Assembly: GCA_024644775.1 (NCBI GenBank)
Contig: JAHEHB010000202.1
Location: 1 to 9,434 of the forward strand
Direction of reading: 5' to 3'
From: Deltaproteobacteria bacterium
GTDB lineage: Bacteria; Desulfobacterota; Desulfobacteria; Desulfobacterales; SURF-15
DNA length: 9,434 nt
Positions 1,885 to 6,181 of this stretch are shown here, in pieces (within the stretch, counting starts at the first letter, position 1; the number at the start of each line of letters is the position of its first letter). Both the position numbers and the translations under genes were made by a program. The notes below the pieces were generated by a model. The model searched no databases and was not told where the DNA came from. It saw only the letters and a list, made by a program, of their open reading frames with translations.

Positions 1885-1892
1885 AGTGTTTT

Positions 1893-1980
1893 GTATTTGG
1901 TGTTTGGTGTTTAGTATTCTACCAAACTGATATGACACCGTATGTTTTAAACAAAATACTAAATACGAAACACTAAAAAC
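1893..1980. repeat. Heptamer-built hairpin element between gatC and gatA
   Basis: The left arm (1893-1920) contains TTTGGTG, TTTGGTG and TTTAGTA in tandem. The right arm (1953-1980) contains AAATACT, AAATACG and AAACACT plus a further partial unit. Compared as reverse complements, the 28-base arms match at 23 positions, with three of the five differences giving G-U pairs in RNA; the loop is 32 bases. The right arm and the bases before it (1945-1973) are identical over 29 bases to 6145-6173. The arms have the same orientation as the two arrays around the S23 gene, so this looks like a version of that element without cargo. Confidence 0.75.
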
Positions 1981-3510: not shown

Positions 3511-3696
3511 ATGAGCATTCAGCCGGAAGGTGAAGAGATAAGAAACGCCGTTAAATGGATTTCTGAAGAACGGCAACATAGTCCGGGAAAAACCGCAAAA
3601 CAGTTGATCGAAGCGGCATGTTTAAAATTCGATTTGTCCCCGCTGGAAGCGGAGTATCTGTATCGGTGTTATAAGAAAGATGATAATGGGATTTAG
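3511..3696 (+). CDS. Small protein of unknown function (61 residues)
   Basis: I do not recognise a named family. The ATG at 3511 is preferred over one at 3460 because AAGGAA lies 8 bases before it and the earlier start would translate the heptamer repeat after gatA. The protein has no signal peptide or membrane segment and is mostly helix-forming: a first helix with AVKWISEERQ (about 13-22), then KQLIEAACLKFDL (about 30-42), then SPLEAEYLYRCYKK (about 43-56). It is probably a small cytoplasmic helical protein. Its stop codon (3694-3696) lies inside the following TTTAGTG array, so the last few residues could have been set by insertion of that repeat. Its position between gatA and mutL suggests it belongs to the same transcript. 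Confidence 0.7.
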   Translation: MSIQPEGEEIRNAVKWISEERQHSPGKTAKQLIEAACLKFDLSPLEAEYLYRCYKKDDNGI

Positions 3697-3726
3697 TGTT
3701 TGGTGTTTAGTGTTTAGTGTTTAGAA
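3692..3726. repeat. TTTAGTG heptamer array, left flank of the S23 gene
   Basis: Five tandem heptamers: TTTAGTG, TTTGGTG, TTTAGTG, TTTAGTG, and TTTAG followed by AA. The array overlaps the stop codon of the 61-residue gene and ends just before the AAGGAGG ribosome binding site of the S23 gene. The reverse-complement heptamers occur on the other side of that gene (4124-4137). Confidence 0.85.
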
Positions 3727-3738
3727 TAAGGAGGTTCT

Positions 3739-4104
3739 ATGAGTTTTCAGCCCTTTGAAGAATTACGAGTTTTTCGGTTAGCTGAAGAATTAGCTGATGA
3801 AATTTGGGATATTGTGGTCGAATGGAAATATTTTGCAAAAGAAACTGTTGGATTGCAATTGGTTAAAGCGGCAGATAGTATTGGAGCCAATATCGCAGAG
3901 GGGGCAGGAAGAGGAACTAAAAAAGACAACCAGCGTTTTATCAGAATTTCAAGGGGCTCACTAAATGAAACAAAGTACTGGTTACGTCGAGCTTACAAAA
4001 GAAAGTTAATCGGCAAAAAGAAAATTGATAATGTAGTAAGTATTATGGATAATTTGGCACCTAGTCTCAATGCGTACCTAAAATCGATCGGCAGAAATGC
4101 ATAA
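3739..4104 (+). CDS. S23-type four-helix-bundle protein
   Basis: 121 residues, the usual size for the four-helix-bundle family named after the 23S rRNA intervening-sequence protein and related to the Avd accessory protein of diversity-generating retroelements. Family hallmarks are SFQPFEELRVFRLAEELAD at the N-terminus, AADSIGANIAEGAGRGTKKD (about 45-64), and RFIRISRGSLNETKYWL (about 66-82), with a last helix to the end. It is Lys/Arg-rich, fitting nucleic-acid contact as proposed for Avd; the cellular function is unknown. AAGGAGG at 3728-3734 gives a near-ideal ribosome binding site, stronger than those of its neighbours. Base use is AT-rich compared with gatA and mutL, a sign of acquisition. 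No reverse transcriptase or template/variable repeat pair is present, so it is not part of a retroelement within this window. Confidence 0.92.
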   Translation: MSFQPFEELRVFRLAEELADEIWDIVVEWKYFAKETVGLQLVKAADSIGANIAEGAGRGTKKDNQRFIRISRGSLNETKYWLRRAYKRKLIGKKKIDNVVSIMDNLAPSLNAYLKSIGRNA

Positions 4105-4123
4105 TTTAAATCAATACAGTACC

Positions 4124-4137
4124 AAAAACTAAACACT
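4124..4137. repeat. Inverted heptamers, right flank of the S23 gene
   Basis: AAAAACT (4124-4130) and AAACACT (4131-4137), the reverse-complement type of the left array. They end 4 bases before the mutL ATG. The preceding bases (TTTAAATCAATAC, 4105-4117) resemble the lead-in to the right arms at 1945 and 6145 (TTTTAAACAAAATAC), suggesting that all three right ends share ancestry. Confidence 0.65.
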
Positions 4138-4141
4138 CTAT

Positions 4142-5977
4142 ATGACCAAAATCAAAATTCTTCCCGAAATCCTTTCCAATAAAATCGCAGCCGGGGAAGT
4201 TGTGGAACGGCCGGCCTCTGTGGTCAAGGAGCTTGTTGAAAACGCCTTGGACGCAAAGAGTACCCGAATCAGAATTGAGATTGAACGAGGCGGCAAATCT
4301 GCCATTCGGATTTCGGATAATGGTGTAGGAATGAGCCGGGATGACGCCATGCTGGCCATCGAACGGTACGCGACCAGTAAAATTTACAAAGATACGGACC
4401 TGTTTTCAATCAAAACGCTCGGCTTTAGAGGTGAGGCACTTCCCAGTATTGCCGCCGTTTGTCGATTTTCCCTTGTCACCAGAGAAAAAACGGCGGACTC
4501 GGGCACTGCCATTTATGTTGAGGGAGGTAAATTAAAGAAAGTCACGGAAACGGGTGCGCCACCCGGTACGATGATTACCGTAACACAGCTTTTTTTCAAC
4601 ATACCCGCACGACGCAAATTCTTAAAAACCATTAACACCGAAACGGGACACATCGCCGATACGGTTTCAAGAATGGCCCTAGGTTGGCCAAGTGTGCTAT
4701 TTCAGCTTCACCATAACGGGAAACTCGTCAAAAGCTGGTCTGCCACATCCGATCCGGTGGTACGCGTATCAGAAGTTCTCGGAAAAGACATCAAGGGACA
4801 ACTGTATCCCATCCGAGCCGATTTTGAGGGGCATTCGGTTTGGGGGTGGGTTTGTGATCCCCGAATCATCCGTCACACCTCCCGCGGCACGTATACCTAT
4901 ATAAACAGCAGATTCGTTAGAGATCGCGTCATTCAGCATGCCCTTTTTGAAGGGTATTCAGGAAGGTTAATGAAAGGACAATTCCCGCTGGCAGCGCTTT
5001 TTATATCGGTCCCCTATGATCAAGTGGACGTCAATGTTCATCCGACAAAAAGCCAGGTTCGATTCGTCGATCAAAATAAGATCCATGCTCTGGTGAAAGC
5101 CGCCGTATCAGAGGCTCTCAAAACAGGTGACAAACCGACAGGTGCCTCTTCTCCAAAATCAACGGAACAAGCCGCCCCTGACCACTGGAGGACTCAGAGA
5201 GTATCAGAATCTAGATCTGACTATTACCCATCGAACTCCGAGTTCCGATTTTCGAATTCCGAATTTCGGATTCCAAATTCCAGGTTAAAAGAAAAAACTA
5301 TAGAAACTCCAATGGTGCTCTCTGAACAAACGATCCATGATATCGAACACGGGCTCCAAATCGAAAATCAAACGGCTCTTTGGGACAAAAAGCCGTTTCG
5401 TGATTTAAAGATAATCGGGCAGCTTCATCAAACCTATATTGTGTGTGAATCCAATAAAGGGCTTGTTCTTGTCGATCAACACGCCGCCCACGAACGCATC
5501 CGTTTCGAGCAGCTTAAAGCCTCATCAAATCGAACAGGAAAAGAAGCCCAGCGGCTCGTTATAGCTGAAACCCTGGACCTATCCTATGCCGAAGCCGATA
5601 TCCTCAAAAAACTCATCCCGAACCTCAATGAATTGGGCCTTGATATCGAACCTTTTGGCGGAAACACATTTGTCGTTAAAGCGATCCCGGCGCTGCTCGA
5701 AGGAAAGAATATCGCATCGATGGTATTAGAAATAGTGGAACAAATTGCAGAGCTTGGAATCATTCACGATTTAAAAAAAACAATCGAACAATGCTTGCTC
5801 GTTATGGCCTGCCACGAAACGGTTCGTGCGAATCAGACGCTGTCCGAGAAGGAAATGAAGGCGCTCCTCCAACAGCTCGACGCGTGCGAAACTCCCTCCC
5901 ACTGTCCACATGGGCGACCCGTTTGGATTGCTTGGTCTCTGCGATCCCTTGAGAAATCCTTTCGGAGGATTGTATAG
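4142..5977 (+). CDS. mutL: DNA mismatch repair protein MutL, endonuclease type
   Basis: 611 residues, full length. MutL couples MutS mismatch recognition to strand incision. The N-terminal GHKL ATPase (about 1-330) has the catalytic Glu30 and Asn34 in KELVENALDA, DNGVGM (59-64) and GFRGEAL (94-100). A low-complexity linker spans about 331-415. The C-terminal dimer/nuclease domain (about 416-611) carries all metal-site motifs: DQHAAHERIRFE (445-456), ACHETVRA (556-563), CPHGRP (588-593) and a terminal F-R-R (607-609). It should therefore nick DNA itself, as in bacteria without MutH/Dam; that is family knowledge. The start fits family alignment (LPEILSNKIAAGEVVERPAS), but no Shine-Dalgarno is visible because the repeat arm occupies the leader. 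The linker includes a heptamer array. Confidence 0.97.
   Translation: MTKIKILPEILSNKIAAGEVVERPASVVKELVENALDAKSTRIRIEIERGGKSAIRISDNGVGMSRDDAMLAIERYATSKIYKDTDLFSIKTLGFRGEALPSIAAVCRFSLVTREKTADSGTAIYVEGGKLKKVTETGAPPGTMITVTQLFFNIPARRKFLKTINTETGHIADTVSRMALGWPSVLFQLHHNGKLVKSWSATSDPVVRVSEVLGKDIKGQLYPIRADFEGHSVWGWVCDPRIIRHTSRGTYTYINSRFVRDRVIQHALFEGYSGRLMKGQFPLAALFISVPYDQVDVNVHPTKSQVRFVDQNKIHALVKAAVSEALKTGDKPTGASSPKSTEQAAPDHWRTQRVSESRSDYYPSNSEFRFSNSEFRIPNSRLKEKTIETPMVLSEQTIHDIEHGLQIENQTALWDKKPFRDLKIIGQLHQTYIVCESNKGLVLVDQHAAHERIRFEQLKASSNRTGKEAQRLVIAETLDLSYAEADILKKLIPNLNELGLDIEPFGGNTFVVKAIPALLEGKNIASMVLEIVEQIAELGIIHDLKKTIEQCLLVMACHETVRANQTLSEKEMKALLQQLDACETPSHCPHGRPVWIAWSLRSLEKSFRRIV
5235..5283 (+). repeat. 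Seven-unit heptamer array (ATTCCGA type) inside mutL
   Basis: Seven consecutive units: ACTCCGA, GTTCCGA, TTTTCGA, ATTCCGA, ATTTCGG, ATTCCAA, ATTCCAG. Because three units make seven codons, the protein shows a matching 7-residue repeat, SNSEFRF / SNSEFRI / PNSR (residues 364-369 onward to 381). The two 21-base copies match at 16 of 21 positions. An internal palindrome TCCGAA-T-TTCGGA spans 5258-5270. It lies in the disordered linker, where extra residues are tolerated. Confidence 0.8.
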
Positions 5978-5998
5978 GTAATCATAAAAATGATGGTT

Positions 5999-6087
5999 TC
6001 GTAAAAAGTCGAAAAACACATTTTTATGTCATTTCCCGATCTTAGCGGGGATCAAGTCCGGCATGATGGTTTTAGGACTTTCTACGA
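5999..6087. repeat. Inverted repeat, TCGTAAAAAGTC family, long copy with nested hairpin
   Basis: The left arm TCGTAAAAAGTC (5999-6010) pairs with the right arm GACTTTCTACGA (6076-6087), one mismatch in twelve. The 65 bases inside contain a second imperfect hairpin around TTCCCGATCTTAGCGGGG (6033-6050). This interior resembles the widespread GTCATTCCCG...CGGGAATCCAG class of dispersed bacterial repeats (from memory). It lies in the convergent gap between mutL and the lipoprotein gene. Confidence 0.7.
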
Positions 6088-6097
6088 GTTTATCAAA

Positions 6098-6147
6098 CTT
6101 AACTTCGACTAAATTCGGTTAAGGTTGTTTATATTTTTTACTTTTTT
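6098..6147 (+). terminator. Weak candidate terminator downstream of mutL
   Basis: CTTAAC (6098-6103) and GTTAAG (6118-6123) form a perfect 6-bp stem, extendable by CGA/TCG after a two-base bulge. A T-rich tract follows (6124-6147, with runs of six and seven T). The stem is AT-rich and the U-tract is interrupted, so efficiency is doubtful. It is the only hairpin plus T-tract seen after mutL. Confidence 0.35.
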
Positions 6148-6181
6148 TAAACAAAATACTAAATACGAAACACCAAACACG
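6145..6181. repeat. Solo right arm of the heptamer element
   Basis: Four heptamers, AAATACT, AAATACG, AAACACC and AAACACG (6154-6181), preceded by the same TTTTAAACA lead-in as the gatC-gatA copy. Bases 6145-6173 are identical to 1945-1973 over 29 positions. No left arm is recognisable upstream. It ends 15 bases before the lipoprotein stop codon. Confidence 0.75.

Follow-up and report, generated by a model that had tools for sequence, protein, structure and literature searches.

The S23 locus just before mutL in the stretch of DNA analysed here (9,434 nt, referred to as the window) is an old, partly eroded member of a class of S23 cassettes bounded by heptamer arrays. In the reading that we consider likely, it is an old and worn example of a minimal cassette of mobile DNA, one that would move as a unit defined by its arms. 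The genes of the window are arranged in the order argS (part), SPOR gene, gatC, gatA, 61-aa ORF, S23 and mutL, and the features of the locus are as follows:

3511..3696, + strand, host ORF of 61 aa; its TAG stop, within the first heptamer, is taken as the left boundary of the insert
3692..3724, + strand, left arm, tandem array (period 7) of 4.7 heptamers TTT(A/G)GTG, G-rich strand inward
3728..3734, + strand, ribosome-binding site AAGGAGG of S23, from the sequence
3739..4104, + strand, S23 / 23S_rRNA_IVP four-helix-bundle gene, 121 aa, from PF05635 and TIGR02436 matches
4121..4137, + strand, right arm, heptamer motif in one degenerate, inverted copy that stops 4 nt short of the mutL ATG
4142..5977, + strand, mutL, host gene at the right edge of the insertion, from a Pfam profile scan

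The S23 protein matched PF05635 (E 5e-26, 91.4 bits against a curated cut-off of 33.8) and TIGR02436 (86.2 bits against 24), and the solved structures 2GSC and 2RLD belong to its sequence relatives. The element had a size of 446 nt and a GC content of 35.9%, compared with 45.8% window-wide, within the lowest 0.2% of 446-nt stretches. An earlier note on this DNA had described an AT-rich S23 gene with a strong ribosome-binding site, inserted just before mutL, and gene, site and orientation were all confirmed. With S23 as the single ORF of at least 80 aa between the arms and no transposase gene, the element does not classify as a transposon. No reverse transcriptase was named among the six window ORFs scanned with Pfam and the six scanned with NCBIfam, and by these ORF scans the window contains no diversity-generating retroelement. 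Nor is the gene an rRNA insertion, as it sits between gatA/61-aa ORF and mutL. Rfam at gathering score returned zero matches in the window and in 99 other loci, which, together with inverted heptamers in most tested copies, upholds the description of a small S23 element outside rRNA. A plasmid DNA search queried with the window element gave zero matches.

The polar residues Q40, S47, N51, E54 and E77 (window numbering) were each present in at least 97% of 79 S23 domains, near-invariance that points to a specific function of the protein. Net charge was discarded as a sign of nucleic-acid binding, with a median of 0 over 79 domains and +7 in the window. The host ORF at 3511-3696 (MSIQPEGEEIRNAVKWISEE...) had a match in 256 of 291 sampled genomes of the class, and no Pfam or NCBIfam model matched the window copy; it is a conserved small protein of unknown function, adjoining gatA and mutL in the loci read.

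Heptamer arrays had been proposed on both sides of the gene, and this stood for the left side only. The left array (3692-3724) reached a period-7 score of 21, matched by 0 of 2000 shuffles with any period from 3 to 12, and exact TTTAGTG occurred eight times in the window against 1.0 expected (0/200 shuffles), three of them within this array. The right arm, in contrast, is one degenerate copy of 14-17 nt with zero exact reverse-complement heptamers; arm pairings within 4121-4137 covered 14 nt at 93% and 17 nt at 82%, and with 100-nt flanks the score was equalled by 35 of 2000 shuffles. In the stricter, 250-nt inverted-arm test the window scored 23, below the 29 reached by the best shuffle, and so failed. 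A related genome (G079) has at this site an S23 gene 71% identical to that of the window and flanked by TTT(A/G)GTG arrays, with an inverted-arm score of 48 (0/1000 shuffles) and a right tandem score of 42. Beside the long right array of G079, the window copy looks eroded.

Between the S23 genes of the window and G079, pN was 0.21 and pS 0.82, with synonymous sites saturated, which indicates purifying selection on the S23 protein. The site is common to both genomes and pS is 0.82, so that a recent insertion is unlikely, if a single event is shared; judged from the sequence comparison, the window S23 is probably an old insertion at this site. An empty gatA-mutL interval, which the earlier note had suggested looking for, was found in L001 (MutL 66% identical), where gatA, a 60-aa ORF and mutL follow one another and S23 is absent, in a comparison that is not nucleotide-exact; against this, the window copy is shared with G079 at the same site. 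In L002, S23 is absent and a period-7 array stands before mutL, and a PF13366 (GxxExxY) gene lies between gatA and the small ORF (189-575). Across the best 30 small-ORF loci, the gatA-mutL interval contained S23 in three (L169, L182, L184) and GxxExxY in five, and S23 was missing from 27, some of the intervals being interrupted by the end of the locus; the small-ORF and mutL matches were 5-25 nt apart in 14 of the 30. Dating of the insertion by MutL and GatA identity was abandoned, as the two genes conflict on whether L001 or G079 is closer; given this disagreement, the empty interval of L001 fits loss there as well as later gain.

GxxExxY (PF13366) genes with inverted arms of 9-10 nt (CACGAAG and CACGGAA types) were also observed in the interval between gatA and the small ORF, in L002, L132, L134, L138, L144, L152 and L165, and in G079 such a gene with CACGAAG-type arms lies across the small ORF from S23. 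This interval may be a hotspot for insertions.

Insert-free relatives were found for all four cyanobacterial plasmid loci that were searched, of eight known:

L193, insert between nrdB and nrdA; empty site in L230
L195, insert between cas10 and cmr3; empty site in L236
L197, insert after an integrase gene; empty sites in L231, L232, L233 and L237
L199, insert between two secretion genes; empty sites in L234 and L235

L198 was also compared with one of the relatives of L197. A cas10-cmr3 cassette is present in Picosynechococcus PCC 7003 and absent from PCC 7002. In the six pairs measured, the insert-bearing locus carried 442-556 nt extra, consisting of array, S23 and array, and the edges located by BLAST fell at the arrays or within about 15 nt of them. 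Where the insert is missing, the corresponding flanks enclose 10-25 host nucleotides at three of the loci, compared with 162 at the remaining one (L234), and these host bases are replaced in the insert-bearing loci. The four plasmid sites showed no clear duplication of the target, with a possible 4-nt TTAG at L193, and the relatives without S23 at these sites showed no such array by eye. Insertion as a unit is evident from these orthologous sites without the insert, at four of four plasmid loci and, without nucleotide-exact correspondence, in L001 for the window. Mobility, which the earlier note had put forward, gains from the insert-free plasmid sites and from a motif that moves with the S23 lineage; as far as sequence can tell, the mobile nature of the heptamer-bounded S23 cassette class is well supported. 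These comparisons indicate that array-S23-array units may be a widespread form of minimal mobile DNA that enters operons without a recognisable transposase.

A further plasmid copy, in Pseudanabaena galeata (L196), places S23 between cas6 and cas4 and has several nested arrays of AAAAGCT/AAAAGCC, very long and in part directly oriented.

The family is common, with PF05635 present in 102 of the 147 sampled genomes of the class to which G002 belongs, and in up to 31 copies. The S23 sample comprised 19 loci, 29 new ones and the next 40 by E-value, so that strong matches were favoured; with S23 frames from other loci and the window added, it held 92 frames in 89 loci, of which 85 were left after removal of duplicates and short flanks, 75 of them full-length. 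Complementary termini, weak in the window and strong at the same site in G079, were frequent: inverted arms scoring above the best of 100 dinucleotide shuffles flanked 52 of the 75 distinct full-length S23 genes, compared with 0/33 GatC controls (Fisher 5e-13) and 1/28 ParE controls (50 shuffles). A tandem array with a score of at least 14 and a period of 7, 8, 14 or 15 accompanied 50 of the 75, and a tandem array was near six of 33 GatC controls. The earlier note had suggested testing other S23 genes for inverted heptamers; 23 of the 75, the window among them, failed the inverted-arm test, and 11 of these 23 had a tandem array that scored 14 or more with a period of 7, 8 or 14 on one side or both. 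In distant genomes (Geobacter, acidobacteria, Opitutales, Kiritimatiellae and Cloacimonadota) 10 of 16 S23 genes passed with 50 shuffles, eight of them with a score of at least 30, and six of eight cyanobacterial plasmid S23 loci had inverted arms. Among the latter, L192 had no arrays, and L199 failed the inverted-arm test with short heptamers visible on both sides. Four of 20 distant-genome loci, two of 30 ParE and two of 30 GIY-YIG were excluded for stops or weak matches, and one further GIY-YIG for a short flank. An earlier 50-shuffle count (S23 66/88, GxxExxY 27/31, GatC 2/34), which contains a few duplicate loci, is superseded by the 100-shuffle test.

The heptamer unit itself varied among copies (TTTAGGG, GGGGTCA, AGTGGTC, TTCAAGG, and GGGAGTA on a Nostoc plasmid), with the same motif on both arms in inverted register. 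The counts of polarity, motif sharing, stop triplets, G.U pairs and neighbour orientation were made on elements passing the 50-shuffle test. G exceeded C in the 5' arm of 62 of 63 arm-positive S23 elements, and the ends of the S23 element therefore have a fixed polarity. In pairs from different genomes without a common neighbour gene, the motif was shared by 17/30 at S23 identities of at least 60%, by 9/179 at 45-60% and by 17/1230 below 45%; the rule is not strict, as 13 of the 30 close pairs do not share it. A permutation test of motif against S23 identity on different-genome pairs gave r 0.30 (0/2000). Two S23 genes of one genome with less than 60% identity never shared a motif (0 of 22 pairs), and a genome-specific motif was rejected. 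On these pairwise comparisons, the arm motif goes with the lineage of S23 rather than with the genome. Stop codons as the function of the arms were likewise rejected: 47 of 63 left arms hold one, fewer than the 54.7 averaged over shuffles.

Arrays of the window heptamer also occur in the window away from S23:

about 1885..1974, no strand assigned, gene-less inverted array (hairpin) of the window heptamer, MITE-like, between gatC and gatA
6148..6180, no strand assigned, solo (right-type) array of the window heptamer, 3' of mutL, by eye

The hairpin at 1885-1974 had a DNA fold z of -4.4 (0/200 shuffles), and similar hairpins were found in G079, G146 and G076. The pattern TTTRGTGTTTRGTGTTTRG was found in six of 147 genomes; the 30 loci returned overlapped heavily and one of them carried S23 (L215, G079). 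Five distinct loci of this pattern (L203, L204, L205, L211, L217) were short-loop hairpins with the G-rich strand inward, and the remaining ones had one array each by scan. An unguided scan of two 400-kb stretches gave 32 inverted array pairs, many of them gene-less hairpins and some enclosing unrelated genes; their compact cargo included S23 and GxxExxY genes, identified by matching positions in the profile searches, and one ORF that by eye resembles a GIY-YIG nuclease. GxxExxY (PF13366) genes had inverted 9-10-mer arms in 27 of 30 cases (100-shuffle test).

The cassette that we envisage would be built of a heptamer array with the G-rich strand inward, a ribosome-binding site, the S23 gene and an inverted copy of the array. 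Its arms would define it and the whole unit would move, often landing in short gaps within operons, along the direction of transcription and with the loss of some host nucleotides. The S23 element lay on the same strand as the upstream neighbour in 52 of 56 cases and as the downstream neighbour in 45, and was antisense to both in none, as judged from longest reading frames and not from annotation; two of eight cyanobacterial copies were antisense to both annotated neighbours. The S23 domain started a median of 33 nt from the left arm, a spacing that would scarcely accommodate a separate promoter and makes expression by read-through likely. S23, whose fold is shared with Avd of diversity-generating retroelements, may recognise its own arms, and an enzyme supplied in trans may cut and join. 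Gene-less hairpins of the same heptamer would be non-coding relatives of the cassette. Copy numbers of S23 correlated with those of GxxExxY (rho 0.60), Y1 transposases (0.32) and reverse transcriptases (0.21), all three nominally significant, where genomes without a listed match were counted as zero. The value for GxxExxY fits shared machinery or shared tolerance, and dependence on reverse transcriptases or Y1 transposases was rejected on their lower values. Against the cassette, no transposition event was observed.

The element could instead act at the level of RNA, with arms that pair in the transcript, cleavage by RNase III and re-entry of the excised S23 RNA into DNA by reverse transcription. 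Co-orientation with the upstream neighbour (52/56) agrees with this, as do a precedent in the rRNA intervening sequences, for which the accessible text of PMC4990558 describes tandem heptamers, a terminal stem and RNase III excision, and the resemblance of PF05635 to Avd of diversity-generating retroelements noted in the accessible part of PMC10053308. We nevertheless regard it as unlikely. Mismatches between the arms showed no excess of G.U (103 G.U-compatible against 123 A.C-type), on which RNA pairing was rejected as a selected feature of the arms, and the RNA fold of the window element was not unusual against shuffles (z -0.78); the earlier note's suggestion of a stem around the S23 message is not borne out as a selected feature by these two results. 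Moreover, 35 of the 102 S23-bearing genomes, including three of the top four by S23 copy number (31, 18 and 17), had no RVT_1 match, and reverse-transcriptase counts followed those of S23 with a rho of only 0.21.

It is very improbable that the arrays are independent regulatory or G-quadruplex repeats of the host beside which S23 genes merely land. In its favour, solo arrays occur frequently in the genomes concerned, and heptamer arrays have been published as quadruplex or regulatory repeats in what is accessible of PMC4692102, PMC4679880 and PMC2700814; but the same motif stands in inverted register on both arms and tracks the S23 lineage rather than the genome, the four plasmid sites without S23 show no array by eye, and control genes are rarely armed. 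That S23 is here an ordinary, vertically inherited operon gene, with flanks arising by chance or resembling a terminator, is scarcely credible. The weak right arm of the window taken alone (35/2000 shuffles), the gene and site common to G079, and the purifying selection (pN 0.21, pS 0.82) would suit such a gene, yet S23 is absent here in L001, L002 and 27 of the 30 gatA-mutL loci (some intervals ending with the locus), and arms are general among S23 genes; the insert-free sites already disfavour it.

The mobile cassette can be compared with several known systems. In the accessible text of PMC4990558, the 23S intervening sequence of Coxiella (428 nt) has S23, tandem GACAGAT heptamers 5' of the gene and a 28-bp terminal stem, and is excised by RNase III; the function of S23 genes is given there as not known. 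These heptamers and stem strengthen the link of the element to rRNA intervening sequences. According to the accessible part of PMC11270868, 23S_rRNA_IVP ORFs occur in CPR bacteria within insertions in both rRNA genes, 16S and 23S. As far as these sources describe them, the rRNA intervening sequences (Coxiella, Leptospira) share with the present element the S23 gene, terminal inverted repeats, though weak in the window copy, a similar size (428 nt in Coxiella, 446 nt here) and, in Coxiella, tandem heptamers beside the gene; residence in a host transcript would be a further likeness. Unlike them, the element here lies outside rRNA, between protein genes, most copies tested have lineage-specific heptamer arms, and the gene has an intact ribosome-binding site and is under purifying selection. 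The likeness rests on DNA anatomy, and the S23 cassette resembles an rRNA intervening sequence in anatomy, not by location.

Heptamer arrays themselves are on record, in the accessible portions of the respective papers, as GGGAATC quadruplex repeats of Xanthomonas with 70 and 75 convergent array pairs and as Nostoc arrays of which few are paired (PMC4692102), as tandem heptanucleotides of Geobacter metallireducens, considered putative regulatory sites, some paired on opposite strands (PMC2700814), and as TAACTGA repeats of Beggiatoaceae (PMC4679880). The word S23 does not appear in the accessible text of these three papers. Repeats of this kind (STRR, Xanthomonas, Geobacter, Beggiatoaceae) are 7-nt tandem arrays as well, whereas the arrays here bound a gene. 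GxxExxY (PF13366) elements also consist of one small gene between inverted short arrays and also occur in the gatA-mutL interval. They differ in an unrelated, nuclease-like protein, in unit length and in arms without G-over-C polarity (11/27), and share a motif with S23 arms in 1.2% of pairs. MITEs and REPINs are likewise small, dispersed, gene-less hairpins; S23-type ends, unlike theirs, are tandem heptamers, and copies can carry S23. Avd of diversity-generating retroelements belongs to a related fold family, according to the accessible part of PMC10053308, but no reverse transcriptase was named among the scanned window ORFs.

Within open-access literature (listings and abstracts, with most subscription journals and all preprints outside), no paper was found that joins non-rRNA S23 to heptamer arms, which is weak evidence that the link is new. 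Heptamer arrays have so far appeared in scattered reports, where they figure as quadruplex or regulatory repeats, and S23 is common yet without a function in the literature; a mobile S23 cassette with gene-less hairpins, if true, would unite both puzzles with the rRNA intervening sequences. A wider proposal, which we hold tentatively as possible rather than probable, is that every lineage of S23 is specific for inverted heptamer ends of its own and that S23 represents a large and so far overlooked class of minimal mobile elements, of which the 23S rRNA intervening sequences would be members landed in rRNA. Many heptamer arrays (cyanobacterial STRRs, Xanthomonas and Geobacter pairs) would then be derivatives without a gene, moved by trans-acting machinery that also serves GxxExxY elements. 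STRR stands for short tandemly repeated repetitive, the name of the cyanobacterial heptamers.

GIY-YIG was rejected as a third cargo, with inverted flanks in eight of 27 genes and a tandem array scoring 14 in none of the eight; these flanks (L299, L300, L302, L309, L311, L320, L322 and L324) are non-tandem, several of them like GTCATTCCGGCGAAGGCCGGAA. An AATTCCG-type heptamer-like array (gaactccgagttccgattttcgaattccgaatttcgg) was seen by eye at 5235-5283, inside the mutL frame, where it separates the two regions with domain matches. Heptamer hairpins of both the window and G076 adjoin or sit inside another repeat (TCGTAAAAAGTC...TTTTTACGAG...TTGATGAA), also by eye; this was noted at 1850-1886 and 5998-6115 of the window and at 1440-1640 of L205.
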